From Mucilaginibacter oryzae (lineage in GTDB: Bacteria > Bacteroidota > Bacteroidia > Sphingobacteriales > Sphingobacteriaceae), in the NCBI RefSeq assembly GCF_003148845.1, contig NZ_QGHA01000002.1, positions 480,974 through 544,973 on the forward strand: 64,000 bases of DNA. The letters run 5' to 3'. The notes beneath the pieces are model-generated. The model was not told where the DNA came from. It was given only the letters and a program-made list of their open reading frames with translations, and ran no database searches. The translations under genes and the position numbers were made by a program. This document shows positions 21,300 to 37,845 of this stretch, piece after piece. Position 1 is the first letter of the stretch, and every line of letters begins with the position of its first letter.

Positions 21300-24200
21300 A
21301 TGAAACTACTCTTGCATTCTAAAATTCCTGTGCCTGTTCCGCACGGAGAATGTGACTACCAACAACAAAGAAATTACTTAAAACTGGTACTAAGGACGAT
21401 GAAGATCACGGGCTTACTCATTTTCTTGCTGGCTATGCAGCTTAGCGCCCGTACCATGGCGCAAAAAGTTAGCATCACCAAGGAAAACAGCGAGTTGAAA
21501 TCGGTTTTAAAAGAACTGCACAAACGCACAGGTTACTTATTCATTTTTAATAACGCGGTTATGCTTAAGGCCAAGCCGGTAACCATTAATGTGGTGAACA
21601 CCGAGCTTAGCCAGGTACTGGTGCAGATATTTAAAGATCAGCCTTTAACTTACGAACTTGATGATAATACCATTATTATTAAAGAGCGTACAGCACCCAA
21701 ACCACAGGATAAAGAAGATGATCAGGCGCCTTTACCAAAAAAAATAACGGGAAAGGTTACAGATAGTAAAGGTAACCCCATTCCTGGAGTAACGGTTATG
21801 GTGAAAGGCGGTCAGGCAGCGGTATCAACCCTTGCCGACGGATCGTTTACTATCAATGCAAATAAGGGAGAGATTTTGCAATTCCGTTTTCTTGGTTTCG
21901 AAACCAAAGAAGTATTGGTTGACGAGCAAACAACGCTGAATGTTACGCTTACAGAGGCTTCGAAAGGTTTAAGCGAAGTGGTGGTAATTGGTTATGGTAA
22001 TGCCACCAGGGCAACTTTAAGTAGTGCCGTATCTACCGTAAGCAATAAAGATCTGAATAAAGGCGCTATTACCGATGTGGGCCAGTTATTACAGGGTAAG
22101 GTTCCCGGATTGAACATCACTGCCAGCGGTGACCCTAATAAACCGGCTGCAGTTGTTTTACGTGGAGCATCAACCATAAACAGTTCGCAGGGGCCGTTTT
22201 ACGTTGTTGACGGTGTTCCGGGCGTTGATATCGCAACCATCGCGCCTGATGATATCGCTACCATTGACGTATTGAAAGACGCCGCGGCTACCGCTATTTA
22301 TGGTAACAGGGCGGCTAACGGTGTGATCATGGTTACCACTAAAAAAGGTAAAAAAGGACAGTTGGCAATAGCGTATAACGGTTATGTAGGCGCCGAAAAA
22401 GTAGCTAATCAACTTGACATGATGAATGCTACTGAATTGAGAAGTTTTCTGAAAGCCAATAATCAGGCGCCTTCATCTGCCGACGACAAAGGCGCTAACA
22501 CCGATTGGCAAAAAGCTATTGAACGTAACACGGCTATATCGCACAATCATAATATATCTATTAGTGGCGGAACCGATCATAGCAGCTATTACGCCAGCGT
22601 TAATTACGTGAAAAAAGACGGTATTATTGCCAACACCGGTTTAGAGCGTGTAATTGGCCGTATGGCCCTAACACAAAGCGCTTTTGATGATAAACTGAAA
22701 TTCAACCTTTCGGTAACCAATTCAAACAGCGATGCTAATGATGTGCCTTACCGCAACGTGATCCTGCTGCAGTCGGCCCTTTTCCTGCCTTTTTCGCCTG
22801 TAAAAAATGCCGATGGCAGTTATTTTGAAAACCCGACAACGCAAAACTATTACAACCCGGTTGCTATGCTCAACAACAGCGTGAGCGATACTAAATATAA
22901 CAACCTGGTAGCCGCGTTCAATACCCAGCTCAAACTTCCTTTTGGCTTAACTTACAACTTAAATTTATCCTATCTAAAAACCAATACCTTACACGGAGAA
23001 TATTATACCTCTTATTATACTTCGCATTATAATGGCCTGTATGATAACCCTGATCCCGGTTTAGGATACCACTCTCAGCAAACGTTTGGCACAAACGGGC
23101 AGGCTACCAGGAGCGCGTTGCAAACAGTGAATAAAATTTTAGAAACCTATTTTAACTGGGATAAAAAGATCGGCAACCACTCCATTAACGCGGTATTAGG
23201 CTATTCATGGCAAAACAATACTATTGGCGATGGTTTCCAGGTAACTACATCCAACTTCCCGGTTGATAATGTTAGCTACAATAACCTCGCTTTGAGTAAC
23301 CCTTACGCGATATCCGGTTTCCAGGTTAACTTTGGTCCGGACGGTGTGTTCCAGGAAACAAGGTTGATATCTGATTTTGCCAGGTTAAACTATAATTACA
23401 ACGAAAAATACCTGTTACAGGCATCAGTAAGGCGCGACGGCAGCTCTGTTTTCGGTAAAGATCATCAGTGGGGATATTTCCCATCTGTAGGCGCTGCCTG
23501 GCGCATAAGCCAGGAAGGCTTTATGAAAGAAAGCAACGCTGTAAATGATCTAAAACTGCGCGCCAGCTACGGTATCACCGGTAACTCATCGGGTTTTAAC
23601 GCTTATACAGCGCAAGCCATTTCAGGTACCCTTGGTACTTTTTACAGTAACGGTAATTACATTAACGCGTTGGGCGCCACACAGGCAGCCAACACAAACC
23701 TGCAATGGGAAAAAACATCCACTGCCAACCTTGGTTTAGATTTTGAACTGTTTAAAGGAAAGGTGAGCGGCTCGCTTGAGGTGTACAACAAAAAAACCAC
23801 CGGTATGATCTTCTCTTATGCGGTTGATCCTGTGCTGGTACCAACAGGCAGTATCGTGGCTAACGGCGGCAGTATGACCAATAAAGGTATTGAGCTATCA
23901 GTTAGCACCACGCCTGTACGCACACCAAATTTCCGGTGGTCAACCTCAGTTAACCTTGCGCATAATAAAAACGTGATCAATAGCTTATCTAACCCGCTGT
24001 TTTCCGGGGGCGATTCGGTGTTGTACTCCTTCCCTGAAGGCGCAGGCCAGTCAAGCCACTCATTACAGATCTTAAAATCAGGCAAACCGTTAGGCGAATT
24101 CTTTTCGCTTCAGTATGCCGGTAAAAATGCTGACGGCGTTTCGCAATTTGTGGGAGCCGATGGCAAACTGACAACCTCGCCAACAATAGGTACAGATTAT

Positions 24201-24671
24201 CACTATTTGGGCAGTGCCCAGCCCAAACTGCTGTTAGGCTGGTCGAACGATTTTCATTATAAAAATTTCGATCTGAATATATTTTTCAGGGGAGTATTTG
24301 GCAACAAGATTTTTGATGCCACCCGTGCCGATCTCTTCAGACCTAATACAGCGCAATACACCAACATCCTGAAGGATGCCGCCGGCGAATCGGCAGCAGA
24401 TTATAACGCTTATCTGTATTCGTCGCGTTTTGTGGAAAGCGGAAGTTACCTGCGTTTAGATAACGCAACCCTGGCCTATAATTTTAAACTGACCAGTAAA
24501 TACATCAAGGCTTTCAGGATTTATACTTCGGCCAACAACGTCTTTATCATAACCAAGTATAAAGGTGTTGATCCGGAAATTAACCAGGGCGGCATTTCTC
24601 CTGGTGTAGATTACAATAACTTTTATCCCAAAACCAGGACACTGCTGGTAGGGGCTAACGTAACTTTTTAG
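21300..24671 (+). CDS. SusC-type TonB-dependent outer-membrane transporter with STN domain
   Basis: The 1123-residue protein has a long N-terminal leader with a hydrophobic core near residues 35-55, then an STN domain (about 60-125, ELKSVLKELHKRTGYLF). A CarboxypepD_reg-like domain (about 150-225) precedes the plug with the SusC hallmark VVVIGYG and the barrel ending in VGANVTF. It imports oligosaccharides released by the surface enzymes. The STN domain links it to FecR signalling. It sits 24 bases before susD. The first 30 residues precede a second possible start at the internal MKITGLL, which could be the true signal peptide start. Confidence 0.96.
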   Translation: MKLLLHSKIPVPVPHGECDYQQQRNYLKLVLRTMKITGLLIFLLAMQLSARTMAQKVSITKENSELKSVLKELHKRTGYLFIFNNAVMLKAKPVTINVVNTELSQVLVQIFKDQPLTYELDDNTIIIKERTAPKPQDKEDDQAPLPKKITGKVTDSKGNPIPGVTVMVKGGQAAVSTLADGSFTINANKGEILQFRFLGFETKEVLVDEQTTLNVTLTEASKGLSEVVVIGYGNATRATLSSAVSTVSNKDLNKGAITDVGQLLQGKVPGLNITASGDPNKPAAVVLRGASTINSSQGPFYVVDGVPGVDIATIAPDDIATIDVLKDAAATAIYGNRAANGVIMVTTKKGKKGQLAIAYNGYVGAEKVANQLDMMNATELRSFLKANNQAPSSADDKGANTDWQKAIERNTAISHNHNISISGGTDHSSYYASVNYVKKDGIIANTGLERVIGRMALTQSAFDDKLKFNLSVTNSNSDANDVPYRNVILLQSALFLPFSPVKNADGSYFENPTTQNYYNPVAMLNNSVSDTKYNNLVAAFNTQLKLPFGLTYNLNLSYLKTNTLHGEYYTSYYTSHYNGLYDNPDPGLGYHSQQTFGTNGQATRSALQTVNKILETYFNWDKKIGNHSINAVLGYSWQNNTIGDGFQVTTSNFPVDNVSYNNLALSNPYAISGFQVNFGPDGVFQETRLISDFARLNYNYNEKYLLQASVRRDGSSVFGKDHQWGYFPSVGAAWRISQEGFMKESNAVNDLKLRASYGITGNSSGFNAYTAQAISGTLGTFYSNGNYINALGATQAANTNLQWEKTSTANLGLDFELFKGKVSGSLEVYNKKTTGMIFSYAVDPVLVPTGSIVANGGSMTNKGIELSVSTTPVRTPNFRWSTSVNLAHNKNVINSLSNPLFSGGDSVLYSFPEGAGQSSHSLQILKSGKPLGEFFSLQYAGKNADGVSQFVGADGKLTTSPTIGTDYHYLGSAQPKLLLGWSNDFHYKNFDLNIFFRGVFGNKIFDATRADLFRPNTAQYTNILKDAAGESAADYNAYLYSSRFVESGSYLRLDNATLAYNFKLTSKYIKAFRIYTSANNVFIITKYKGVDPEINQGGISPGVDYNNFYPKTRTLLVGANVTF

Positions 24672-24695: not shown

Positions 24696-26312
24696 ATGAA
24701 CAGAATATTAAAAAGCATTGGCTTTTGCGCTATACTCATGTCAGGTTTTACATCGTGCCAAAAAGTATCGGTACCCGTAAAAACAGAATTAACCTCAGAT
24801 GTTTTCCCTCAAAATACAGCGCAATACGCGCAGGCGGCCGGCCCGGTGTATGTGGCTTTGAGGGGTAATATATCGGTTGAGCACTTTTTTATGCAGTCTG
24901 CCACTACTGATGAGGTGATCTTCCCGGCTTACGGCGGTAACTGGTATAACGGGGGCGAATATCAGCAGTTACACTACCATACCTGGACAAAAGATCACCC
25001 CGGTGTAGGCGGTGAGTGGACCTGGACATCGACCATCATCGGCCTCGCTAACCAAACCCTGGCAACCCTGCAGGCGGTAGAACCGGAAGGAGCAGCCAAG
25101 CAGCAGGACCTGGCCGAGTTAAGGGCAGTAAGGGCGCTGGCTTACTTTTACCAGATGGATAGCTTTGGCAATGTGCCAATAGTAACCGTTGCGGGCGACT
25201 ACGCGCAGCACCCTAACAAAAGCCGCACTGAAGTTTTCAACTTTATCGAATCGGAACTCAAAGCCGCGTTACCGGCGCTAAGCAGCACTACAGGGCAAAC
25301 TACCTACGGCAGGCCCACTAAATATATGGCTTATGCACTGCTTGCCAAAATGTACCTGAACGCCGAATATTACACCGGCACCAAACGTTATGATGATTGC
25401 ATCGCGGCCTGCGATAACGTGATCAGCTCAGGTGCGTACCACCTCGAACCGAGGAGCACCTATCTGAAAATGTTTTACCCCAACAACGGCCCGCAAACCG
25501 CCGAGTTCATATTCGCGATACCGTTTGACCCTTCGGCAAGTAATACGCTGCCTTTCAGGAGCCAGAACCTTCACCAGCGGTATGACCTGCCAAGGCGATT
25601 GGTGAACAAATACAAGGTTAATTTTACACCGGATGGCGCTATCAGCACTTTGCCATCGTATTATGCCAATTTTAATGATGTAAACGATATCAGGAATAAG
25701 CAATGGTTAACCGGTAAGCAATATCAGTTTGACGGCATAACCCCCGTAACTTATACCACTACCAACCAAAGCTACGACCAGTTTTATAAAGGGAGCGACC
25801 CTAACGGTTCTATAACCTACCAGGTTGAGTTAACACCAAACATTGTTTTAAGACAGGACGTTGGCACTTTTGATGTGGGTAACGATGAAATAGGCTGGAA
25901 TATGGGTTACCACAACCTTAAGTTTTACCCGGATTCAACATCGCTGAACAGGAATATGAAAAATGATATCCCGGTTTTCCGTTATTCGGATATCCTGCTG
26001 ATGAAGGCCGAGGCAATTTTAAGGGGCGGCGCGCCAACCCAAGGGCAAACCGCGCTTACATTGGTTAACATGCTGCGCGCCGAGCGCACTACGTCACCAG
26101 CATGGACTTCGGTAACGCTGGATGATCTTTATGCCGAACGTTGCCGGGAGTTTGCCTGGGAATCATGGCACAGGAATGATATGATCAGGTTTGGAAAGTA
26201 TGAAACATCCTGGGGCTTCAAAACAGATGCCAACCCGGCCCACCGTATTTTCCCTATACCTACAGCAGCCATGCAGCTAAACAAGGCGCTTGTTCAAAAC
26301 CCGGGTTACTGA
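24696..26312 (+). CDS. SusD-type surface glycan-binding lipoprotein
   Basis: The 538-residue protein has a lipoprotein signal ending in GFTSC (C21) and the usual tetratricopeptide-like alpha-helical body: RALAYFYQMDSFGNVP, YGRPTKYMAYALLAKMYLNAEYY, and the C-terminal RxEFAWESWHRNDMIRFG region. It sits on top of the partner SusC as a lid and binds the polysaccharide. The PFLFDxK-like ending found in most members is present as IFPIPTAAMQLNKALVQNP. It is 24 bases after susC and is followed by the catabolic genes. Confidence 0.96.
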   Translation: MNRILKSIGFCAILMSGFTSCQKVSVPVKTELTSDVFPQNTAQYAQAAGPVYVALRGNISVEHFFMQSATTDEVIFPAYGGNWYNGGEYQQLHYHTWTKDHPGVGGEWTWTSTIIGLANQTLATLQAVEPEGAAKQQDLAELRAVRALAYFYQMDSFGNVPIVTVAGDYAQHPNKSRTEVFNFIESELKAALPALSSTTGQTTYGRPTKYMAYALLAKMYLNAEYYTGTKRYDDCIAACDNVISSGAYHLEPRSTYLKMFYPNNGPQTAEFIFAIPFDPSASNTLPFRSQNLHQRYDLPRRLVNKYKVNFTPDGAISTLPSYYANFNDVNDIRNKQWLTGKQYQFDGITPVTYTTTNQSYDQFYKGSDPNGSITYQVELTPNIVLRQDVGTFDVGNDEIGWNMGYHNLKFYPDSTSLNRNMKNDIPVFRYSDILLMKAEAILRGGAPTQGQTALTLVNMLRAERTTSPAWTSVTLDDLYAERCREFAWESWHRNDMIRFGKYETSWGFKTDANPAHRIFPIPTAAMQLNKALVQNPGY

Positions 26313-26392
26313 TTGATTATTTGATTAAAGCGGCGGCGGGTAAAATATACCGTCGCCCTTGTTTTTCAATTTGTAACAGTATATATTTTGCC

Positions 26393-27940
26393 ATGAAATT
26401 TACATCTGCACTTGTTATTGTTTTGTTTGCGCATTTTACAGCGTTCGCCCACCGTGCTTGTGCCGGGGAAAAGATTTTCAATATAGCGGCTTTGGGAGCT
26501 GTTGGCAATGGTAAAACCGATAACACGCTCATCATTCAAAAGGCAATTAATAACTGCGCGGCTTCGGGCGGAGGTATAGTACTGGTTCCGCAAGGTGAAT
26601 TTGTAACAGGGGTGATCGAACTTAAATCAAATGTCGAATTACATTTAAACCCCAACGCTAAACTACTGGCAACTGTAAAACGCATAGCCTATGGCCCGGC
26701 AAAAGCCTCGGCCTTAATAGTAGCCAAAGGCTGTACTAACATAGCGATTACGGGTACCGGCATAATAGATGGCAGGGGGGAAGCTTTATTAAAAGATATA
26801 TACCGTATGCTCAGGAACGGTACGCTGAAGGATAAGGAATGGCAATCCTATAACGACTGGCACCAGATGCGCCCGGAAGAAGACAACCGGCCCAAGCTGA
26901 TATTTTTTGAAAAATGCGATAACGTCAGGATCAGCGATGTAACGATTAAAAACGGGTTGTGCTGGATCCAGGAGTACCGTGGTTGCAGCAATATGACGAT
27001 CAATAATATCAAGGTTATCAGCAATACATTTTTAAACAATGATGGGATTGACCTGGTAGATTGCAAAAAGGTAAAACTAACCAATAGCTTTTTTAATGTA
27101 GCTGACGACGGTATCTGTCTTAAATCGTCAGACCCGGAAAGTTGCTGCGAAGACATTGTTATTTCAGATTGCAGGATCCGCTCGAGCGCGAGCGCTTTTA
27201 AAATGGGTACGGCATCCTTTGGCGGGTTTAAAAAAATAACGGTGCGTAATATTGATGTGTACGATACGTTCCGGTCGGCCATCGCGCTTGAATCTGTAGA
27301 CGGTGGTATTGTCGAGGATATTGATGTGAGGCATGTGCGCGCGAAAAATACCGGTAACGCTGTTTTTATCAGGTTGGGCAAACGCCAGAAATCAAGGGAT
27401 GCAGGTGCGGTTAGCGGTATTCATATTGCAGACGTGAAAGCTGAGGTTCCCGCCGGAAAGCCGGATGCCGGTTATCATATGGATGGCCCGCGCGAGCTGT
27501 TTAAACATAATGTTTTCCCTGTGTCGGTTACCGGGATCCCCGGCTCACCGGTAAAGGATGTTACGCTCGAGGATATCGATATCACCTATGCGGCCACAGC
27601 TAAAAAGACCACAGCCTTTTTCAATATCGATTCATTAACCAAAATACCCGAGCAGATATCTGCTTACCCCGAATTTTCCATGTTCGGCGAGCTGCCGGTT
27701 TCCGCTTTTTATGCAAGGCATGCAGAGGGGATCAATTTGAAAAATATACATATCAGCTACACCGGTTATGACTTCCGCACACCATTTGTTTTTGATGATG
27801 TAAATGGCCTTTACGCCGAAAAGGTAACCGTTTCCGGCTTTAAAACACTACCGTTAATGCTGCTGAATAACGTTAAAGTGAAAATGCTGCAGGATATACA
27901 ACCTGCAGATAAGCGCCGCCAGGTAATAAAAACCCAGTAA
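26393..27940 (+). CDS. GH28-family glycosidase (polygalacturonase-like)
   Basis: The protein is 515 residues from ATG 26393, just before a signal peptide (TSALVIVLFAHFTAFAH). An upstream in-frame TTG at 26321 is ignored. It is a right-handed beta-helix: FNIAALGAVGNGKTDNT at the start, then the GH28 acidic pair positions NNDGID (D217) and DDG (D238, D239). The third GH28 motif, normally GHG, is replaced by SASAFKMG (about 265-272), so a divergent subgroup is likely, with exo- or modified-substrate activity. It begins the catabolic gene row of the PUL after SusD (80-base gap). Pectin or rhamnogalacturonan is the expected target. Confidence 0.88.
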   Translation: MKFTSALVIVLFAHFTAFAHRACAGEKIFNIAALGAVGNGKTDNTLIIQKAINNCAASGGGIVLVPQGEFVTGVIELKSNVELHLNPNAKLLATVKRIAYGPAKASALIVAKGCTNIAITGTGIIDGRGEALLKDIYRMLRNGTLKDKEWQSYNDWHQMRPEEDNRPKLIFFEKCDNVRISDVTIKNGLCWIQEYRGCSNMTINNIKVISNTFLNNDGIDLVDCKKVKLTNSFFNVADDGICLKSSDPESCCEDIVISDCRIRSSASAFKMGTASFGGFKKITVRNIDVYDTFRSAIALESVDGGIVEDIDVRHVRAKNTGNAVFIRLGKRQKSRDAGAVSGIHIADVKAEVPAGKPDAGYHMDGPRELFKHNVFPVSVTGIPGSPVKDVTLEDIDITYAATAKKTTAFFNIDSLTKIPEQISAYPEFSMFGELPVSAFYARHAEGINLKNIHISYTGYDFRTPFVFDDVNGLYAEKVTVSGFKTLPLMLLNNVKVKMLQDIQPADKRRQVIKTQ

Positions 27941-27958: not shown

Positions 27959-30172
27959 ATGAAACGCAAATCCAGAGTTTTCATTTACATGCTGCTATGC
28001 GGCCTTTGTTGTAAAGTAAACAAATCCGCGGCGCAATTAAATGTACCGTCCTCCTACGCTTTAATAAAAAGGGTTATACCTGCCGCAGCCCCGAAATTTA
28101 TAGTTGAGCCGCTCCCTGCCAACCAACCCAAGGATGTTTTTGAGGTTGAAGGTAAGATGGGTAAGATCATATTAAGAGGTAATAACGGTGTGGCTGTTGC
28201 CTCGGCCCTATACCATTATCTTACCGAATATGCGCACTGCCAGGTTACCTGGAACGGGTCAAACCTTAACCTGCCTGTTAGGTTGCCTGTTCCTGCCGGT
28301 AAAATTCGCAAAACCACGCCTTACCAATACAGGTATTACCTCAACTACTGTACCTACAGCTACAGCATGAGCTGGTGGGACTGGAAACGATGGGAAAAAG
28401 AAATTGATTGGATGGCCTTGCATGGCATCAATATGCCCCTGGCCATTACCGGGCAGGAGTACGTATGGGATAAAGTGTACAAAAGCATGGGTTTCAGCGA
28501 TCAGGATATGAAGGGGTTTTTTACCGGTCCGGCATATTTTGGCTGGTTTTACATGGGCAATATCGATGCCTGGGACGGGCCGCTTCCCCAAAGCTGGATA
28601 ACAAGCCACCGCGACCTGCAGGTTAAAATATTACGGCGCGAGCGCGAACTCGGCATAAAACCTGTACTCCCGGCTTTTACTGGGCATGTACCGGCATCGT
28701 TTAAAACACACTATCCTAACGCCAAACTAAAACAAACCAATTGGAATAATGGCTTTGCCGACACTTATATCCTTGATTCGGAAGATTCGTTGTTCGCGCA
28801 GATAGGCAAGAAGTTTATAGAGGAACAAACCAAAGTTTACGGAACTGACCACCTGTATTCGGCAGATACTTTCAACGAAAATGAGCCGCCATCTAACGAT
28901 CCTCAGTTCCTGTCAGAATTGAGCGCGAGGGTTTACGATGGCATGAAGGGAGCCGATCCAAAAGCTGTTTGGGTGATGCAGGGCTGGCTGTTTTTCAGCG
29001 ACCGCAAGTTCTGGAAAAACGAGCAGATCAAAGCGTTGCTGAACGCCGTGCCCAATGATCATATGATTGTTCTGGACCTGAACACCGATTACGAACCGGT
29101 ATGGAAACGTACCGAAGCCTTTTACGGCAAACCCTGGATCTGGAACATGCTGCACAATTACGGCGGCAACAACAGTTTATTCGGCCGTATTGAAGCTGTG
29201 GCTACACAACCCGCACAGGCGCTTGCCGATCCGGCCTCGGGCAGGATGGTAGGCATAGGCTTAACGATGGAAGCTATTGAGCAAACGCCAGTGTTGTACG
29301 AATTAATGACACAAAATACCTGGCAAAGCAAACCCGTTAACCTTGATGAATGGCTGCCGCGATATGTGTTTAACCGCTATGGTGTAAAAAGTAAAGAGGC
29401 GGAGCAAGCCTGGCAGATACTCCGTACAACCGTTTTTAACGGCAAGGATATCCGCGACGGCGCCGAATCCATCATTACAGGCCGCCCTACGCTCGATTCG
29501 GCAGCGGTATGGACCCGTACACATCTTAATTATAATCGTAAAGACCTGCTTCCCGCCTGGGATAAAATGTTTGCCGCCATACCACAATGTAAACAAAGCA
29601 ACGGCTTTAATTACGACCTGGTTGATGTGACACGACAGGTGCTTGCCAACTATGGCCGTCCGCTTCAGCTAAAATGGATCAGGGCGTACCAGGAAAAAGA
29701 TGACAAGGCTTTTGCAAAGTACACCGGCGAATACCTCAACCTGATCAACGATATGGATAAGCTGCTTGCTACACAAAAGGACTTTATGCTTGGCCCCTGG
29801 CTAAGCGACGCACGTAAATGCGGAACCAACGCGACAGAAAAGGCGCTTTACGAAAAGAACGCCCGCAACCTCATTACCTTATGGGGAGGGGCTGATAGTC
29901 CGCTGCACGAGTACTCGTGCAGGCAATGGAGCGGTTTGCTTAACGACTTTTATAAGGTGCGGTGGCAAAAGTTTTTCGGCGTACTACAGGCATCGCTGGA
30001 GACGGGCAAGGAACCCGATTTTAAGGAATTCGAACAATCGATCAAAAACTGGGAGTGGGAATGGGTAAATTCATCAAAAGCATATCCGGTTGTGCCGGTT
30101 GGCAGCAGCACTCTGATTGTGCAGCAGCTATATCATAAATATCGGGTTAATATGGGTAACGATCTTAAATAA
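27959..30172 (+). CDS. GH89 alpha-N-acetylglucosaminidase (NAGLU-like)
   Basis: The 737-residue protein removes terminal alpha-linked N-acetylglucosamine. After a signal peptide with an N-terminal beta domain come the catalytic barrel segments YYLNYCTYSYSMSWWDW and WERELGIKPVLPAF-like parts. By comparison with human NAGLU from memory, E307 (DTFNENEPP) is the acid/base and E438 (GLTMEAIEQ) the nucleophile, and MLHNYGGNNSLFG is conserved. GH89 is rare in a pectin-type PUL. The next gene, five bases on, resembles the human enzyme that acts directly before NAGLU. The two are probably co-expressed and act on one glycan. Confidence 0.95.
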   Translation: MKRKSRVFIYMLLCGLCCKVNKSAAQLNVPSSYALIKRVIPAAAPKFIVEPLPANQPKDVFEVEGKMGKIILRGNNGVAVASALYHYLTEYAHCQVTWNGSNLNLPVRLPVPAGKIRKTTPYQYRYYLNYCTYSYSMSWWDWKRWEKEIDWMALHGINMPLAITGQEYVWDKVYKSMGFSDQDMKGFFTGPAYFGWFYMGNIDAWDGPLPQSWITSHRDLQVKILRRERELGIKPVLPAFTGHVPASFKTHYPNAKLKQTNWNNGFADTYILDSEDSLFAQIGKKFIEEQTKVYGTDHLYSADTFNENEPPSNDPQFLSELSARVYDGMKGADPKAVWVMQGWLFFSDRKFWKNEQIKALLNAVPNDHMIVLDLNTDYEPVWKRTEAFYGKPWIWNMLHNYGGNNSLFGRIEAVATQPAQALADPASGRMVGIGLTMEAIEQTPVLYELMTQNTWQSKPVNLDEWLPRYVFNRYGVKSKEAEQAWQILRTTVFNGKDIRDGAESIITGRPTLDSAAVWTRTHLNYNRKDLLPAWDKMFAAIPQCKQSNGFNYDLVDVTRQVLANYGRPLQLKWIRAYQEKDDKAFAKYTGEYLNLINDMDKLLATQKDFMLGPWLSDARKCGTNATEKALYEKNARNLITLWGGADSPLHEYSCRQWSGLLNDFYKVRWQKFFGVLQASLETGKEPDFKEFEQSIKNWEWEWVNSSKAYPVVPVGSSTLIVQQLYHKYRVNMGNDLK

Positions 30173-30177
30173 CGGGC

Positions 30178-31362
30178 ATGAGTAGTAATTTACATAATCA
30201 GGCAATACAAGCCGAAAAACCGGTATCTAAACCGGCCCGGCTGTTATCGTTAGATGCGCTCCGCGGGTTTGATATGTTCTGGATCATGAGCGGCGAAGGC
30301 GTTATACACGCGCTTGCCAAAGCCACAGGCTGGCCTGTTTTTGTGTGGATGTCGGGCCAGTTGCACCACACAGTGTGGAACGGCATCACATTTTACGATA
30401 TGATCTTCCCCTTGTTTTTGTTCATCGCAGGTGTTTCCATGCCTTATTCGCTGGGGAACAAAGCTGCAAAACATGGCGTTGCGCATCCGCACCTGTTGCC
30501 GCCCAATGCAAAACGGGAAATTTATATTTCGATGATCAGGCGGGCGCTCATTCTGCTTTTTTTAGGTATGGTGGTTAACGGGCTGTTTAAATTTAATGGC
30601 TATGAAAATACCCGCTTTGCCAGCGTATTGGGCCGTATCGGGCTTGCCTGGTTTTTCGCGGGTATTATATATATCAACTGCGGTGTTCGCGGCCAGGTTT
30701 TATGGTTCGGCATTTTGCTGCTGGGCTACTGGGCGGCTATGGAGTGGATCCCTGTACCGGGATATGGCGCAGGTGTTTTAACCATGAACGGCAGCCTCGA
30801 ATCGTATATTGATCGCCTGTTGCTTCCAGGTCGCCTGCATGATAAAGTACACGATCCCGAGGGCGTACTATCTACCATACCTGCCATTGGCACGGCCATG
30901 CTGGGCATTTTTGCAGGGCAGTTTTTAAAGTTGGATAATGCGCGATGGCCCATGTGGAAAAAAGGCGTTGCAATATTTATGGCCGGTTTAATACTTATCG
31001 CTATTGGCTGGTTGTGGAATTTTAGTTTCCCGATAAACAAACGTTTATGGAGCAGTTCGTTCGTGTTGTTTGTGGGTGGTTGGAGCTGTGTTTTTTTATC
31101 AGTGTTTTATCTCATTATAGATGTTGCCGGCTGGCGTAAATGGGCATTCCCATTTGTACTGATCGGTGTTAACTCTATAGTCATCTATCTTGCTTCGGAA
31201 GGAATGGTTGATTTTCAGCACACTGCCAATTATTTTTTTGGCGGTATTATTAGTCATCTTTCTCAAACCTGGCAGCCGGTGTGGTCGGCCATATCTGTAG
31301 TTTTTATACAGTTAACCTTGCTTTATATTCTATATCGCAATAAGATCTTCCTGAAAATCTAA
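30178..31362 (+). CDS. HGSNAT-like membrane N-acetyltransferase (DUF5009/COG4299)
   Basis: The 394-residue inner-membrane protein has about ten helices. It starts RLLSLDALRGFDMFWI, like human heparan-alpha-glucosaminide N-acetyltransferase as I recall it. H64 in HHTVWNG aligns with the active-site histidine of the human enzyme (HASWNG). Other shared segments are YIDRLLLPG, HDPEGVLSTI, PINKRLWSSSF and the very end ILYRNKIFLKI. The human protein uses cytosolic acetyl-CoA to acetylate glucosamine on the far side of the membrane. If this enzyme does the same, it would prepare alpha-glucosamine ends for the GH89 neighbour. Function is inference; homology is strong. Confidence 0.85.
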   Translation: MSSNLHNQAIQAEKPVSKPARLLSLDALRGFDMFWIMSGEGVIHALAKATGWPVFVWMSGQLHHTVWNGITFYDMIFPLFLFIAGVSMPYSLGNKAAKHGVAHPHLLPPNAKREIYISMIRRALILLFLGMVVNGLFKFNGYENTRFASVLGRIGLAWFFAGIIYINCGVRGQVLWFGILLLGYWAAMEWIPVPGYGAGVLTMNGSLESYIDRLLLPGRLHDKVHDPEGVLSTIPAIGTAMLGIFAGQFLKLDNARWPMWKKGVAIFMAGLILIAIGWLWNFSFPINKRLWSSSFVLFVGGWSCVFLSVFYLIIDVAGWRKWAFPFVLIGVNSIVIYLASEGMVDFQHTANYFFGGIISHLSQTWQPVWSAISVVFIQLTLLYILYRNKIFLKI

Positions 31363-31410: not shown

Positions 31411-33822
31411 ATGAAGTATAAATTTTTCCTGCTTTGTATTTTCCTGCTGTCTGCAACCCTGGTTTCCGCGCAAAGCGTATCGGGAAGACAGGTGTCAAAT
31501 TTTGATAAAAGCTGGTTATTTCATTTAGGTGATTTAGCCGGGGCTCAGATTGCCGGTTTTAATGATGCCGGTTGGCGAAAACTGGATTTGCCCCACGACT
31601 GGAGTATCGAGGGTAAGTTCAATAAGGATAATCCCGCTAAACCTGAAGGCGGGGCATTACCCGGCGGTATTGGCTGGTACCGCAAAGTATTCACTGTGCC
31701 CGCCGCTAATAAAAGCAAACTGACCTATATCGAATTTGACGGCGTTTATCAGAAAAGCGATGTATGGGTAAACGGCCATCACCTCGGCTTCAGGCCTAAC
31801 GGTTATATTTCGTTCAGGTATGAGTTAACGCCTTATTTAAAATACGGCGGCCAAAACAACACTATTGCCGTAAAGGTTGATAATTCCAGTCAGCCTAATT
31901 CAAGGTGGTACTCCGGCTCGGGCATTTACCGGCATGTGCGTTTGGTTGCCGTTAATAAAATAGCGGTTGACCAGTGGGGTACCTTTGTAACTACCAGCAA
32001 CGTTAGCCAGGCCAGCGCTGATATTTCGGTGCAAACCGCCATTCGTAATAAAGGCGGAAAAAAGGGCGAATACAAAATCGTAACCGGTTTGTATGATATG
32101 GCAGGTAAGGCTGTTGGCGGTCAGGTTACCGCCAAACTCTTCGTCAATGATACATTAACTACCGCCATTCAAAAGCTTACATTGCAAAGGCCGCGGCTAT
32201 GGTCGGCTGATGCTCCGGCACTATACCAGGTTATTTCCCGGGTTATGGCAGGTAATGAAACTGTAGACACCTACAAAACCACTGTAGGTATCCGCGATTT
32301 TTATTTCGACACTGATAAGGGTTTTATCCTTAACGGCGAAAAGGTAAAAATAAAAGGCGTTTGCCTGCATCATGATCTGGGTTGCCTGGGCGCCGCCATG
32401 AACGTACACGCGCTTGCAAGGCAATTGAAAATGTTAAAGGAGATGGGTTGTAACGCCATCCGTACATCGCACAACCCGCCATCGCCCGAGCTGCTTGACC
32501 TTGCCGATTCGATGGGTTTTATTGTGATGGACGAAGCTTTTGATTGCTGGGAAAAAGCCAAGGAAAAATATGATTACCATTTGTTTTTTAAACAGTGGCA
32601 CAAACGCGATTTGGAAGATCAGGTATTACGCGACCGTAACCACCCTTCGGTGATGATCTGGAGCATAGGCAACGAAATTCCTGAGCAAAGTGACAGTAGT
32701 GGTTTCAGGATAGCAAAAGATCTGGCAGGTATTGTACACCGGCTGGATAGCACACGCCCGGTTACTGCCGCCAACAATCATCCGGATACCAAAAATCAGA
32801 TCATCAGGTCGGGCGCTATCGATCTGGTGGGTTATAATTATCACCATACCGATTTGGTGGGTTTTCACGAGCGTTACCCGGATAAGAAATTTATCGGTAC
32901 CGAAACAACGTCGGCTCTCGAAACCCGGGGTGTTTATGATATGCCAAGCGATAGTATCCGCCGCTGGTCTGACGAGGATAAGCAGCCGATGAATGCCGAT
33001 TTCACTGTGTCGGCCTATGATAATGCTTCCACGCCATGGGGCTCGACCCATGAAGAAACCTGGAAGATCATCAAAAAATATGATTTTCTTTCGGGCATGT
33101 TCATCTGGACCGGCCTTGATTACCTGGGCGAGCCAACACCGTATACCTGGCCCGCACGCAGTTCCTATTTTGGTATTATCGACCTTGCTGGCTTTCCTAA
33201 AGATGTTTACTACATGTACCAGAGCGAGTGGACAAGCAAGCCGGTACTGCACCTTTTACCGCACTGGAACTGGGAGCCGGGCAAAACTGTGGACGTTTGG
33301 GCCTATTACAACAATGCCGATGAGGTGGAACTTTACCTGAATGGTAAATCATTAGGTGTAAAAAAGAAACAGGGCGATGATCTGCATGTAATGTGGCGTG
33401 TTAAATATGCCCCCGGTACCTTAAAGGCTGTACCCCGGAAACATGGTGCGGAAGTATTATCTGCCGAAGTGAAAACAGCCGGTAAGCCTGCATTAATTCA
33501 GTTATCAGCAGATAAAGATAAACTGAAAGCCGGGGATGCAGACCTTGCCTTCATTACCGCTAAAGTACTGGATAAGGATGGGAACCTTGTTCCATTCGCA
33601 AAAAATAAAATAATGTTCAGGGTTAATGGAGATGCTTTCATCGCCGGGGTTGATAACGGCGACCCTACAAGCCACGAACCTTTTAAAGCTAATTACCGTT
33701 ATGCTTTTAATGGCCTTGCTTTGGCTGTTATACAAGCGAAGCAAAAATCCGGGACGGTAGTTGTTTCGGCCGAAGCCGATGGATTGCCTGCTGCACAGCT
33801 TAAATTATCGGTGGTAAAATGA
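31411..33822 (+). CDS. GH2-family beta-galactosidase or related beta-glycosidase
   Basis: The 803-residue protein has a signal peptide (AFFLLCIFLLSATLVSAQ-like), an N-terminal sugar-binding domain (GWYRKVFTVP, then DVWVNGHHLG), an immunoglobulin-like domain (about 190-295) and the catalytic barrel. The acid/base is E422 in IWSIGNE and the nucleophile is E498 in GTETTSA. RTSHNPPSPELLDLADSMGF is typical of the family. A DUF4982-like domain and a final Ig-like domain follow after about 605. It would remove beta-galactosyl (or similar) units in the periplasm. Within this PUL it would act on galactan or arabinogalactan side chains. Confidence 0.93.
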   Translation: MKYKFFLLCIFLLSATLVSAQSVSGRQVSNFDKSWLFHLGDLAGAQIAGFNDAGWRKLDLPHDWSIEGKFNKDNPAKPEGGALPGGIGWYRKVFTVPAANKSKLTYIEFDGVYQKSDVWVNGHHLGFRPNGYISFRYELTPYLKYGGQNNTIAVKVDNSSQPNSRWYSGSGIYRHVRLVAVNKIAVDQWGTFVTTSNVSQASADISVQTAIRNKGGKKGEYKIVTGLYDMAGKAVGGQVTAKLFVNDTLTTAIQKLTLQRPRLWSADAPALYQVISRVMAGNETVDTYKTTVGIRDFYFDTDKGFILNGEKVKIKGVCLHHDLGCLGAAMNVHALARQLKMLKEMGCNAIRTSHNPPSPELLDLADSMGFIVMDEAFDCWEKAKEKYDYHLFFKQWHKRDLEDQVLRDRNHPSVMIWSIGNEIPEQSDSSGFRIAKDLAGIVHRLDSTRPVTAANNHPDTKNQIIRSGAIDLVGYNYHHTDLVGFHERYPDKKFIGTETTSALETRGVYDMPSDSIRRWSDEDKQPMNADFTVSAYDNASTPWGSTHEETWKIIKKYDFLSGMFIWTGLDYLGEPTPYTWPARSSYFGIIDLAGFPKDVYYMYQSEWTSKPVLHLLPHWNWEPGKTVDVWAYYNNADEVELYLNGKSLGVKKKQGDDLHVMWRVKYAPGTLKAVPRKHGAEVLSAEVKTAGKPALIQLSADKDKLKAGDADLAFITAKVLDKDGNLVPFAKNKIMFRVNGDAFIAGVDNGDPTSHEPFKANYRYAFNGLALAVIQAKQKSGTVVVSAEADGLPAAQLKLSVVK

Positions 33823-33891: not shown

Positions 33892-34851
33892 ATGATACAG
33901 CGTTTACTTTCTCTTTTCATCCTGCTTTTGTGTTGCCAGGCCCTGCAGGCGCAAAAGCAAATGGTTCATAATCCTATAACGGGTGGGTATTTTGCCGATC
34001 CTACCATTGTTAAGGATAAGGGGCATTATTTCATTTATGCAACCATCGATCCATGGGGTGCTAAGGAATTAGCGGTACTGGAAACAACCGACTTTATCAA
34101 ATTTACCCGGCACCATATCAACTGGCCAACAAAGCAGGCCTGTACCAGCAAAACCTCGCTTGATGAAATGGTTTGGGCGCCATCGGTAGTAAGAGGGAAG
34201 GACAACAAGTTTTATATGTACGTAGCGGTAGGCGGAGAAGTATGGGGTGGCGTAAGCAATACACCGCTTGGCCCCTGGAAAAACCTGAAAAAGGATAATT
34301 CGCCGATGGTAAAATCCACAGATTATCCAAATGTTCATAATATCGACCCGGATTGTTTTATTGATGACGACGGAGCAGCTTACCTGTATTGGGGTTCGGG
34401 CTATAATTGGATAAACGGGCACTGCATGGCTGTAAAGCTTAAAAGCGATATGGTTTCATTTGACGGTAAACCCCAGGATATTACTACCCCTCATTTTTTT
34501 GAGGGGGCGCATATGGTTAAGCGTAACCGTACTTATTACTTGATGTTTTCGGAAGGGAAAGCGATAGATGCAAGCTACCAGGTAGGGTATGCCAAAGGCA
34601 GCAGTCCGCTTGGCCCATTTAAAGAAAATGATCACCGGGTGATATTGAGCTCCTCGGCAGACAGTACGGTGATCGGTCCCGGTCACCACACCACCTTTAT
34701 CAATAAAGGGCAGCGCTATATTTTATATCACCGAATTTTTCCGCAGAAGGAATCTTTTGTATTACGCCAGCTTTGCCTTGATAGTTTAAATTTTGATACC
34801 AATGGCGATATTAAAAAGGTGAGCACCAAAGGGGTACAAAAGTTTAACTGA
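33892..34851 (+). CDS. GH43-family glycosidase (arabinosidase/arabinanase type)
   Basis: The 319-residue protein has a signal peptide and a five-bladed propeller. The catalytic acids can be placed at D36 (FADPTIV), D152 (NIDPDCF) and E204 (FFEGAHM). Length matches a single-domain GH43. Such enzymes cut alpha-L-arabinofuranosyl or beta-xylosyl bonds. It lies between GH2 and GH51 in the same operon, which favours arabinose release from pectic side chains. Subfamily is not determined. Confidence 0.93.
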   Translation: MIQRLLSLFILLLCCQALQAQKQMVHNPITGGYFADPTIVKDKGHYFIYATIDPWGAKELAVLETTDFIKFTRHHINWPTKQACTSKTSLDEMVWAPSVVRGKDNKFYMYVAVGGEVWGGVSNTPLGPWKNLKKDNSPMVKSTDYPNVHNIDPDCFIDDDGAAYLYWGSGYNWINGHCMAVKLKSDMVSFDGKPQDITTPHFFEGAHMVKRNRTYYLMFSEGKAIDASYQVGYAKGSSPLGPFKENDHRVILSSSADSTVIGPGHHTTFINKGQRYILYHRIFPQKESFVLRQLCLDSLNFDTNGDIKKVSTKGVQKFN

Positions 34852-34869: not shown

Positions 34870-36837
34870 ATGAGAAAATTAAGTTACGCCACATTGTTGT
34901 TAATGCTACTTACCTGGTTGCCAACTGTTGCCCAGCAAAAAGTATCGTCATTAAAACCCAAACAGATCAGCCCCGACCTTTTTGGGATCTTTTTTGAGGA
35001 CTTAAGTTACGCCGCCGATGGCGGCCTTTATGCCGAATTGATTCAAAACCGTTCGTTTGAATACAGCCCGGCCGATAACCGGGACTGGCATTCATTAACC
35101 GCCTGGAAATACCAGACTGACGGCTTTGGTTACGGTACTATTTCTGTAGAAACCACTGCTCCGGTTCATTCAAATAACCCTCATTATGTTGTTTTGAATG
35201 TAGAGGAAGAGGGGCAGAAAGGAGTGGGGCTGGAAAATTCAGGTTTTGACGGCATACCCGTTAAGGCAGGAAAAGGCTATCGCTTTTCCGTGTTTTTAAA
35301 TGTAATGTCGGCTAATCCTTTACCTATAGCTGTAGCGCTTGTTGACGATAAAGGCAAAGAATTAGGCTCATCAACATTCACAGCTACAGGCCATGGCTGG
35401 AAAAAGTATACCGAACAGATCAATATCAATTTTGATGATGATGATGCCAGGTTAGTAATGCTGGTAAAATCAAAGGGAAAAGTCGGTATAGATATGGTGT
35501 CATTATTCCCGACCGAAACGTTTAAACACCATGAAAACGGAATGCGCGCCGATCTGGCCCAGGTTATTGCCGATCTGAAACCCAAGTTTATGCGTTTCCC
35601 TGGCGGATGTCTCACGCATGGCGATGGTGTTGCCAATATTTATCGTTGGAAAAACACTATCGGCCCGGTTGAACAGCGCACAGATCAGCGTAATATCTGG
35701 AATTACCACCAGTCGATGGGCCTGGGTTTTTTTGAATATTTTCAGTTTTGCGAGGATATTCACGCTAAACCCGTGCCTGTACTTGCCGCAGGTGTAAGCT
35801 GCCAAAACTCGGGCGGTACCTGGAGAATCGGCTCTACAGGGCAAAAGGGCATCCCGATGGATGAAATGAAAGCCTATGTACAGGATGTGCTTGACCTTAT
35901 CGAGTATGCCAACGGGTCCGTAAATTCAACATGGGGCTCAAAACGTGCGGCTGCAGGGCACCCCGCACCTTTTAACCTGGAATATCTGGGCATTGGCAAT
36001 GAAGACAAGATTACCGGGTTGTTTGAAGATCGTTTCCGGATGATTTACGATGCGGTACACAAAGCCCATCCTGAAATAAAGATAATTGGAACCGTAGGTC
36101 CAAGCCCAAATGGCGAAGATTTTGACAAAGGCTGGAAACTGGCCAACCAGCTCAATGTTGGTATTGTTGATGAGCATTATTATGAAAAACCACAATGGTT
36201 TTTAAAAAACACGGCGCGTTATAATAACTACGATAGGCAACGGTCTAAAGTTTATATCGGCGAATATGCCTCATGGGGTAATAAACTGTTTAACGCGCTT
36301 TGTGAAGCAGTTTATATGACTAATCTTGAACGCAACGGAGATGTTGTGAGAATGGCGTCGTACGCGCCGCTGATAGCCAGGATCGGGCATACCTCATGGA
36401 ACCCCGACCTAATCTACTTTAATGGCACCCGCGTTTTTCCAACTGTAAACTATTATGTTCAACAGCAATTTGCCGCCAATTCCGGCAGCGAATATTTGCC
36501 CGATGTAATAACACTTAAAGGTGATCAGGCTACGAAGGACACGACAGTCGGCGTATCATGCGTAAGGGACAAAGCCACAGGTGATATTATTTTAAAGATC
36601 GCCAATGCAGGCAATAATGCTGTTTCCGGCGTAGCACAGTTGGGCAAGATTGGCGCGTTTCCCGGTTCGGCTATGCTTACCACCATTTCAGGTGATATGC
36701 AGGCAGAAAACACGGCGAACAATCCGGATGCTGTTCTTCCGAAATCTACGGCGATCAGCTTACAAAAAAACTGGTCGTTTACCGTTCCCGCATATTCTTT
36801 CAGCGTGCTGAGGATAAAAGTTTCCAGGGTTAAATAA
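34870..36837 (+). CDS. GH51 alpha-L-arabinofuranosidase
   Basis: The 655-residue protein has a signal peptide. The catalytic barrel begins FGIFFEDLSYAADGG, is split by an inserted CBM4-like module (about residues 75-215, GYRFSVFLNV, GKVGIDMVSLFP), and resumes at KFMRFPGGCLTHGDG. The acid/base is E378 (LGIGNED) and the nucleophile E465 (YIGEYASWG). It releases arabinofuranose from arabinan or arabinoxylan. It is 18 bases after the GH43 gene and part of the same operon. This bacterial layout is common in Bacteroidota. Confidence 0.96.
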   Translation: MRKLSYATLLLMLLTWLPTVAQQKVSSLKPKQISPDLFGIFFEDLSYAADGGLYAELIQNRSFEYSPADNRDWHSLTAWKYQTDGFGYGTISVETTAPVHSNNPHYVVLNVEEEGQKGVGLENSGFDGIPVKAGKGYRFSVFLNVMSANPLPIAVALVDDKGKELGSSTFTATGHGWKKYTEQININFDDDDARLVMLVKSKGKVGIDMVSLFPTETFKHHENGMRADLAQVIADLKPKFMRFPGGCLTHGDGVANIYRWKNTIGPVEQRTDQRNIWNYHQSMGLGFFEYFQFCEDIHAKPVPVLAAGVSCQNSGGTWRIGSTGQKGIPMDEMKAYVQDVLDLIEYANGSVNSTWGSKRAAAGHPAPFNLEYLGIGNEDKITGLFEDRFRMIYDAVHKAHPEIKIIGTVGPSPNGEDFDKGWKLANQLNVGIVDEHYYEKPQWFLKNTARYNNYDRQRSKVYIGEYASWGNKLFNALCEAVYMTNLERNGDVVRMASYAPLIARIGHTSWNPDLIYFNGTRVFPTVNYYVQQQFAANSGSEYLPDVITLKGDQATKDTTVGVSCVRDKATGDIILKIANAGNNAVSGVAQLGKIGAFPGSAMLTTISGDMQAENTANNPDAVLPKSTAISLQKNWSFTVPAYSFSVLRIKVSRVK

Positions 36838-36879: not shown

Positions 36880-37845
36880 ATGAAAAAAACACTTTTACTG
36901 GGCCTTTTAATTGGTTTCTGCACAACGCTTTTTGCGCAGCCTTCGCAAAAATTCAGCGCTTATCTTTTTACTTATTTTACCGGCGATAAAGGCGGTGAAG
37001 CCATCCGTTTCGCCTTGAGTAATGACGGCTATCATTTCCGTGCGTTAAACAACAACCAGCCGGTAATCAATTCGGCCGAAATCAGCGCCACAGGCGGTGT
37101 AAGGGATCCGCATATCATGCGGGCTGCGGATGGTAAAACATTTTACATGGTAGCCACGGATATGAATACCGAAAAGTTTGGCTGGGGGCCCGATTCATCG
37201 ATGGTGCTCCTAAAGTCAACCGATTTGATACATTGGACATCTAAAACTATCGATATCACCAAAACCTTCAAAAAGTTTGATGGTGTAAACAGAGTATGGG
37301 CACCGCAAACCATTTATGATCCGAAGGTGAAAAAGTATATGATCTATTGGTCGATGCGTTTTGGTGAGGAAGCCGATAAAATCTATTATGCTTATGCAAA
37401 CAAGGACTTTACAGGCCTGGAAACCGAACCTAAACAGCTTTTTTTTAAACCTGACGGCGGAGCCTGCATTGATGGCGACATTGTTTATAAAGACAAAAAA
37501 TACTATCTCTTTTTCAAGACAGAGGGTTCAGGTGCCGGTATAAAAATAGCGGTGTCGGATAAGTTAACCTCGGGATATGTGCTGCGCGACAAGTATGTTC
37601 AGCAAACCAAAGATCCGGTGGAAGGTGCCGGGACCTTTAAGTTGAATGATGGCAGTGGTTACATTTTAATGTATGATATGTATACCCAGGGTAAGTACCA
37701 GTTCACCCGCACTACCGATCTTGAAAATTTCAAGCTGATCGACGATGAGGTATCTATGGATTTCCATCCACGTCATGGTACGGTTATGCCCATCACGGAA
37801 AAAGAAGCTGCCGTATTAAAGGCAAAATGGGGTAAGTCTGAGTAA
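36880..37845 (+). CDS. GH43-like secreted glycosidase
   Basis: The 321-residue protein has a signal peptide (LLGLLIGFCTTLFAQ) and a beta-propeller core. GGVRDPHIM (D76), CIDGD (D198) and the later VEGAGTF or KTEGSG glutamate are the likely catalytic acids; WAPQTIYDPKVKKYMIYWS is typical. The family call is firm; the subfamily (arabinosidase) is inferred from its neighbours. It is the last gene of the operon, followed by a terminator-like hairpin. Confidence 0.85.
   Translation: MKKTLLLGLLIGFCTTLFAQPSQKFSAYLFTYFTGDKGGEAIRFALSNDGYHFRALNNNQPVINSAEISATGGVRDPHIMRAADGKTFYMVATDMNTEKFGWGPDSSMVLLKSTDLIHWTSKTIDITKTFKKFDGVNRVWAPQTIYDPKVKKYMIYWSMRFGEEADKIYYAYANKDFTGLETEPKQLFFKPDGGACIDGDIVYKDKKYYLFFKTEGSGAGIKIAVSDKLTSGYVLRDKYVQQTKDPVEGAGTFKLNDGSGYILMYDMYTQGKYQFTRTTDLENFKLIDDEVSMDFHPRHGTVMPITEKEAAVLKAKWGKSE

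Follow-up and report, generated by a model that had tools for sequence, protein, structure and literature searches.

In Mucilaginibacter oryzae (Bacteroidota), a gene for a GH89 alpha-N-acetylglucosaminidase and a gene for an HGSNAT/NagX-type transmembrane acetyltransferase stand side by side in a polysaccharide utilization locus (PUL), at 27959–30172 and 30178–31362 of the window, the stretch of 64,000 nucleotides analysed here (contig NZ_QGHA01000002.1, positions 480,974 to 544,973, forward strand). We propose, by analogy with the human enzymes, that the two enzymes work together as a bacterial form of the HGSNAT–NAGLU relay of lysosomes. The pair recurs across genera, and the new observation is that loci holding it are enriched for myo-inositol oxygenase (MIOX), GH92, GH28-like proteins, and sodium/solute symporters. 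Judging from sequence and gene context, terminal alpha-glucosamine is probably capped from acetyl-CoA and then removed by GH89 in these loci, which would act most likely on plant glycosyl inositol phosphorylceramide (GIPC) head groups and possibly on glycosylphosphatidylinositol-type glycans.

The two open reading frames (ORFs) were confirmed where the initial annotation had placed them: the GH89 stop ends at 30172 and the acetyltransferase ATG begins at 30178, leaving a gap of 5 bp between genes for proteins of 737 aa and 394 aa. By its domains, the first gene is a GH89 enzyme of the NAGLU type, with hydrolysis of alpha-N-acetylglucosaminides as its predicted activity. The N, TIM-barrel, and C domains of Pfam NAGLU all scored above cut-off (89, 497, and 292 bits), and residues 35-728 aligned with human NAGLU (4xwh, 562 bits) and residues 35-710 with a Clostridium GH89 (2vc9, 429 bits). 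The glutamates E307 and E438, already named as the catalytic pair, indeed aligned to human NAGLU, at residues 293 and 423 of the chain by count along the 4xwh alignment; we take these to be E316 and E446, provided that the chain begins at residue 24. Both were invariant in all 13 GH89 sequences aligned (13/13). The N-terminus looked signal-like by eye. NAGLU requires the N-acetyl group on its substrate. Two divergent GH89 groups were found in clusters that hold the pair, with 54-66% and 35-37% identity to the window GH89.

Among curated families, the acetyltransferase is, by profile comparison, nearest to NagX and not to Pfam DUF5009. NCBIfam NagX (NF046061) matched its whole length with 373 bits, below the cut-off of 480, which was also missed by 8/8 other bacterial relatives tested and by all genomes of a 296-genome phylum sample (0/296). 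A Pfam scan at E 0.001 returned 0 families, DUF5009 and HGSNAT_cat included, and the DUF5009 label of the initial annotation was rejected. That annotation had also described the family as having no settled role; according to the available text of one study (PMC9007349), fitness data from five bacteria show that they need NagX relatives to use glucosamine. DUF5009 has been grouped with HGSNAT in the TmAT superfamily, with no DUF5009 function confirmed in the available part of that report (PMC12423673).

As judged from an AlphaFold2 model (pLDDT 85), the acetyltransferase has the HGSNAT transmembrane fold. The match between the model and human HGSNAT spanned 344 residues (Z 37, root-mean-square deviation 3.2), and nine HGSNAT entries matched it with Z 33-37 over 342-344 residues at deviations of 3.2-3.3. 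The next fold was GWT1 (Z 20-21), an acyltransferase of glycosylphosphatidylinositol (GPI) biosynthesis that works on the inositol of glucosaminyl-phosphatidylinositol. In a phmmer alignment with human HGSNAT (62 bits), H64 fell on H297, as had been supposed. HGSNAT is described as having the dyad H297-D307, glucosamine contacts at R372 and E499, and N286 as the residue that holds the acetyl carbonyl, with N286D reported to be far milder than N286A or N286Q (PMC11199644). H64 and D74, spaced like the human dyad, were present in 76/76 aligned relatives, and the equivalents of the glucosamine contacts, placed by counting along the phmmer alignment, were largely kept (R146 for R372 in 70/76, E228 for E499 in 71/76). 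The counterpart of Asn286 is position 40, mapped as 11 residues past the Arg that matches R275 in agreement with the range offset of the structure match; it was Asn in 37, Glu in 31, Asp in 6, and Ala in 2 of the 76 relatives. Asn here marks one bacterial subfamily (37/76), and Glu or Asp the subfamily of the window protein (37/76). The Pedobacter-type acetyltransferases (L070, L071, L099-L109; L, G, and C numbers are our labels for loci, genomes, and contigs) have 23 extra residues between the helix 1 Arg and the catalytic His (58 vs 35).

The pairing of GH89 with the acetyltransferase is real, beyond chance. In 149 Mucilaginibacter genomes, 55 of the 56 window-type copies of the acetyltransferase (at least 52% identity, 347 bits) lay within 6 kb of GH89, whereas 0/79 more distant copies (43-50% identity, among the matches listed) did, and 41 of these 79 were in genomes with GH89. 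The sole window-type copy away from GH89 (G390) was in a fragmented assembly. These counts used start-to-start distances and 142 GH89 rows; the fragments G380:C300 and G386:C698 were dropped, G333 (50%) was included among the 79 distant copies, and rows below about 266 bits were left out. In four distant-copy loci that were fetched (L192-L195), the acetyltransferase stood among housekeeping or unrelated genes.

The phylum sample contained 26 GH89 genes in 19 genomes. Eight of the 26 lay within 5 kb of a NagX/HGSNAT-type gene (0.23 expected), and with six more from one genus, 14/26 lay within 31 kb (1.1 expected); a ninth pair with a weak match (G238:C2:765443, E 1.6e-6) was left out of the count. 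Since NagX-type genes are common (114/296 phylum genomes, 18/19 GH89 genomes), co-presence alone means little, and distance is the signal. The co-occurrence that had been noticed in one genome was thus found well beyond it.

We also collected named loci, the top 80 of 578, with an alignment that included paired GH89s, so that the 40/80 GH89 loci with an acetyltransferase within 10 kb (50%) are not a population rate. In these 40, the acetyltransferase was the next gene in 29, passing over unlabelled ORFs shorter than 150 aa, and lay downstream of GH89 in 27 and upstream in 13; in L096 the pair is on opposite strands. The hosts included Mucilaginibacter, Pedobacter, Chitinophaga, Filimonas, Dyadobacter, Flavobacterium, Leeuwenhoekiella, Wenyingzhuangia, Draconibacterium, and an Opitutaceae bin. 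Both acetyltransferase subfamilies pair with GH89, and on a tree built by a quick method, with long branches flagged, pairing changes 7 times, at least 5 of them forced by starred branches. In the Opitutaceae bin (Verrucomicrobiota, outside Bacteroidota), GH89 and the NagX-type gene overlap (L162 9785-13293). The control genome, Caulobacter vibrioides, gave matches for NagX, GH89, PI-PLC-C1, GH115, and GH67 and none for MIOX.

Unacetylated alpha-glucosamine occurs in heparan sulfate and in the inositol-linked GPI anchors and plant GIPC. This list pointed to the inositol-linked kinds, and inositol genes were then sought around the pair. MIOX was present in 17/40 pair loci versus 0/40 GH89 loci that lack the acetyltransferase (p 2e-6) and, among full-length Bacteroidota loci, in 14/32 with the pair versus 0/12 without it (p 0.008); the Fisher tests, both here and for the pairing above, ignore kinship, and 6/19 phylum GH89 genomes belong to one genus. 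MIOX is uncommon in the phylum (23/296 genomes above cut-off), yet it is present in 12/19 GH89 genomes, and nine of these 12 (six of one genus) carry it no more than 31 kb from GH89. The comparison of the named loci gave similar contrasts for GH92 (23/40 with the pair vs 1/40 without the acetyltransferase), the GH28-like family (15/40 vs 0/40), sodium/solute symporters (14/40 vs 0/40), and a purple-acid-phosphatase-type gene (9/40 vs 1/40). Local gene labels came from profiles built on few sequences, the key ones being verified with Pfam. The link to inositol is statistical and drawn from the loci of relatives, and it suggests an inositol-bearing substrate.

Other candidate partners were rejected. 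GH115 is not a general partner (3/40 pair loci vs 2/40 without the acetyltransferase), and in the 19 sample genomes with GH89 neither it nor GH67 was found close to the pair; GH67 is present in 10 of these 19, M. oryzae included. GH115 and GH67 are both absent from three sample genomes (G099, G080, G138) whose pair locus includes a GH28-like gene. Phosphodiesterases of the endonuclease/exonuclease/phosphatase (EEP) type, which stand beside the pair in L148, were discarded as support (7/40 loci without the acetyltransferase vs 1/40 with the pair), and so was UxuA, which adjoins MIOX in L069 yet occurs in 0/40 named pair loci. The Bacteroidales bins L139, L140, L141, and L148 combine SusC-SusD and one or two GH89 with 2-3 ORFs of roughly 260 aa; in L148 these ORFs are of the EEP type, and an acetyltransferase is also present.

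Among the strongest single cases is Flavobacterium daejeonense (L111), in which the pair is part of a run of GH92, GH43, GH89, acetyltransferase, PI-PLC-C1, GH115 (alpha-glucuronidase family), phosphoesterase, and hybrid sensor. The run from PI-PLC-C1 to the hybrid sensor also follows the pair in L113 and L135, and in all three loci PI-PLC-C1 (421-431 bits) and GH115 (437-451 bits) are directly behind the pair. One strand of G202 holds, over about 40 kb and together with a few other genes, GH89, NagB/deacetylase, SusC, SusD, two GH92, PI-PLC, phosphoesterase, hybrid sensor, MIOX, GH2, acetyltransferase, symporter, two GH28, and GH51. Eight Pedobacter-type loci have, in this order, a regulator (LacI in L099), MIOX, SusC, SusD, a phosphatase of the purple-acid-phosphatase type, acetyltransferase, GH89, GH28 (4/8), and GH92. 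The run MIOX-SusC-SusD-608 aa-SSF-GH28 occurs without GH89 in G033 (L170 8559-19999); this 608-aa protein, a 598-aa protein in L183, and a 551-aa protein in L106 had no Pfam match.

In M. oryzae itself these parts are scattered over the genome, which has three GH89 genes, two of them in pair loci. The second pair locus, on C1 (L010 5685-19998), has the order SusC-SusD-GH89-GH35-acetyltransferase-GH92, which recurs in several other Mucilaginibacter and to which L136 adds MIOX. The genome also has MIOX on C3 (L169) and, on C7 (L185 4867-10660), a SusC-SusD-PI-PLC operon whose SusC belongs to the group of the window SusC. Such operons, again with a SusC of this group, were seen in three genomes (L185, L186, L188).

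The PUL that contains the pair in the window consists of the following genes.

19260–19862, + strand: ECF (extracytoplasmic function)-type sigma factor (Pfam Sigma70_r4_2 56 bits, Sigma70_r2 42 bits)
19938–21125, + strand: FecR-type anti-sigma factor (Pfam FecR 69 bits, FecR_C 66 bits)
21300–24671, + strand: SusC-type outer-membrane transporter (NCBIfam OMP_RagA_SusC 766 bits)
24696–26312, + strand: SusD-type lipoprotein (Pfam SusD_RagB 80 bits)
26321–27940, + strand: GH28-like beta-helix enzyme, proposed uronidase (Pfam GH28 71.5 bits)
27959–30172, + strand: GH89 alpha-N-acetylglucosaminidase, NAGLU-type (Pfam 497 bits; human NAGLU 562 bits)
30178–31362, + strand: HGSNAT/NagX-type transmembrane acetyltransferase (NCBIfam NF046061 373 bits; HGSNAT fold Z 37)
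31411–33822, + strand: GH2 beta-galactosidase, GalB-type (NCBIfam GalB 921 bits, cut-off 900)
33892–34851, + strand: GH43, predicted arabinosidase type (Pfam GH43 146 bits)
34870–36837, + strand: GH51-type alpha-L-arabinofuranosidase (Pfam ASD1 344 bits, Alpha-L-AF_C 102 bits)
36880–37845, + strand: GH43-like, predicted alpha-arabinofuranosidase (Pfam GH43 46 bits; NCBIfam alpha-arabinofuranosidase 93.5 bits, below cut-off)

The window SusC clusters with the SusC proteins of L069-L071, L077, and L079, which are Pedobacter/Flavobacterium loci with MIOX, and the window SusD falls in one cluster with theirs. GH28 enzymes are known to act on galacturonides. In an alignment of 24 relatives, the GH28-like protein keeps the catalytic D241, D262, and D263 and has lost the GHG histidine. 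Further along the window, 38431-59971 holds a second SusC/SusD locus with ECF sigma/FecR and with DUF4959/DUF5126/DUF5000 and DUF4998/DUF5013 proteins; on its opposite strand is a GH43-GH43-GH10-GH43-esterase run, then GH9. From these families, it looks like an arabinoxylan locus.

According to the available text on GIPC, a hexosamine with a free amine adjoins hexuronic acid-inositol-phosphate, hexoses and pentoses lie further out, and plant GIPC also has a mannose form (PMC12201980). In the mechanism that we propose, the inner-membrane acetyltransferase would carry the acetyl of cytosolic acetyl-CoA through its pore to the free amine of a terminal alpha-glucosamine in the periplasm, and the periplasmic GH89, made for alpha-GlcNAc, would then cut off the acetylated glucosamine. 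The substrate would be the GIPC head group, from which GH43 and GH51 would take off arabinose and GH2 galactose. GH92 in related loci would remove mannose as an alternative to the relay on glucosamine, the GH28-like protein (GH115 in some relatives) might remove the uronic acid, PI-PLC-type phospholipase C and phosphatases would free the phosphate, and MIOX would oxidise inositol to glucuronate.

As a reading of genomes, the acetylate-then-cleave logic is well supported, because the co-occurrence reaches far beyond the source genome and the catalytic His is kept in 76/76 relatives. The order of the two steps is carried over from the human system, and the relay would presumably be periplasmic. 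An inositol-linked glycan is the candidate because MIOX is repeatedly found close to the pair and because PI-PLC, phosphatases, and GH115 are present at some of the pair loci; among such glycans, GIPC appears the most plausible substrate. Enzymes beside the pair span arabinose (GH43/GH51), galactose (GH2/GH35), mannose (GH92), and, in few loci, fucose (GH95/GH29), as well as glucosamine (the relay), uronic acid (GH28-like/GH115), phosphodiester and phosphate (PI-PLC, phosphatases), and inositol (MIOX). The initial annotation had read the rest of the PUL as aimed at pectic or arabinogalactan side chains and had left the source of the amino sugar open. Inositol-linked glycans are now candidates for that source, and the arabinose and galactose enzymes also fit GIPC decorations; pectin or arabinogalactan alone was rejected, as it explains neither the pair nor MIOX. 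Overall, the earlier interpretation was partly supported. The wider claim, that widespread Bacteroidota loci consume plant GIPC head groups by acetyl-CoA capping, GH89, PI-PLC/phosphatases, and MIOX, with a sister type for GPI-like glycans, has in our view an even chance of being right.

Several observations weigh against GIPC as the substrate or against the relay. No single locus carries the complete enzyme set for the GIPC head group, and the window PUL has no MIOX, PI-PLC, phosphatase, or GH92. The MIOX of M. oryzae is surrounded by genes of the NeuB, epimerase, and aminotransferase types; a TonB receptor is close by, and no SusC/SusD pair was recognised near it. MIOX is missing within 10 kb in 23/40 pair loci, and PI-PLC lies inside 3/40 named pair loci and one sample genome only. 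Enrichment in pair loci was not significant for GH2 (4/40), GH43 (4/40), and GH51 (2/40), each against 0/40 (p 0.12 to 0.49), nor for GH95, PI-PLC, and GH115, whose near-equal counts and distance from the pair in the 19 genomes, shared with GH67, are given above; the way in which the named loci were chosen counts here too. The GH28-like protein is without the usual histidine, and its role on glucuronic acid is a guess. In the acetyltransferase, position 40 is Glu where human HGSNAT has Asn286, and relatives of this protein are credited with free glucosamine (PMC9007349). Finally, the GH35-type pair loci are without a recognised uronidase, and GPI fits them as well as GIPC or better.

It is possible, though we think it less probable than GIPC, that the same relay has as its main substrate a GPI-type glycan (Man-GlcN-inositol, as carried by arabinogalactan proteins with a GPI anchor) or an inositol glycolipid of fungi. 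GPI and fungal GIPC share the sugar order Man-GlcN-inositol, and the GH92 enrichment favours them. The SusC-SusD-GH89-GH35-acetyltransferase-GH92 loci, including the one with MIOX, point the same way, and PI-PLC would suit GPI as well as GIPC. The GPI core has no uronic acid, whereas the GH28-like genes of 15/40 pair loci and the GH115 behind the pair in three loci indicate one. GH92, for its part, equally suits the mannose form of plant GIPC (PMC12201980).

We consider it unlikely that the membrane protein is NagX proper, which would acetylate free periplasmic glucosamine for uptake as GlcNAc, with GH89 a mere neighbour in amino-sugar catabolism. NagX is the closest curated family, it is tied to glucosamine use by the fitness data from five bacteria (PMC9007349), and a NagB/deacetylase-type gene adjoins GH89 in genus g8 (L088). 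The missed NagX cut-off says little alone, as the eight other bacterial relatives miss it too. The distant NagX-like copies, however, were never near GH89 (0/79, among the matches listed) in contrast to the window type (55/56), and free glucosamine would not be releasable by an enzyme that, like NAGLU, requires the N-acetyl group.

Heparan sulfate was not favoured as substrate: no heparan lyase or sulfatase was found among the window PUL genes scanned, flank genes having been scanned for sulfatases only in part, and one related locus (L092) holds an FGE-sulfatase-domain gene. An alternative in which the pair acts on some amino-sugar polysaccharide, heparan-like or other (from a bacterial capsule or from a pectic or arabinogalactan preparation), and the inositol genes are bystanders in large plant-polysaccharide clusters would agree with a window PUL that has besides the pair only GH28, GH2, GH43, and GH51, and with the PL8-family lyase in two GH89 loci without the acetyltransferase (L073, L134), but it is improbable given that MIOX accompanies GH89 in the named loci only where the acetyltransferase is present (17/40 vs 0/40) and that 0/40 pair loci matched the PL8 profile, the one lyase family searched there.

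The pair was compared with the closest known systems. It shares with human HGSNAT and NAGLU the two families, the HGSNAT fold, the His-Asp dyad, the GH89 domains, and the Glu pair, whereas the human acetyltransferase has 663 aa and the window protein 394 aa, without the luminal domain and with Glu40 in place of Asn286. Unlike the human pair, the bacterial genes form an operon, which in relatives is surrounded by inositol and plant-glycan enzymes. With NagX of Shewanella and others, the window protein shares the family by profile over its whole length, but it scores below the cut-off and is linked to GH89, not to a chitin/GlcNAc cluster, and the second, distant NagX-like copy within Mucilaginibacter stands apart from GH89. 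With the DUF5009/HGSNAT-cat families of the TmAT superfamily (PMC12423673) it has the TmAT fold in common but, unlike them, it has no Pfam match at E 0.001. As in the plant-glycan PULs of Bacteroidota, ECF sigma/FecR, SusC, SusD, and glycoside hydrolases form one run; in relatives, unlike in those PULs, a transmembrane acetyltransferase is accompanied by MIOX and in certain cases also by phosphatases and PI-PLC-C1, a combination suggestive of a glycolipid head group. Literature searches on GIPC with PUL, and on myo-inositol oxygenase with Bacteroidetes and PUL, found no paper in the collection searched, and the available text of two papers does not describe bacterial GIPC breakdown.

These results offer a candidate function and substrate for a subgroup of the HGSNAT/NagX family, whose DUF5009 relatives have none confirmed in the available text of PMC12423673. 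Structural studies of HGSNAT could also use its small bacterial relatives as models. If the relay operates as proposed, it would be a periplasmic two-step process costing one acetyl-CoA per glucosamine, a lysosomal strategy turned to nutrition, and would correspond in bacteria to the relay whose enzymes are missing in Sanfilippo syndrome types B and C. Plant sphingolipids of a very abundant class would then have a sink, and their recycling by soil and plant bacteria would be predicted.

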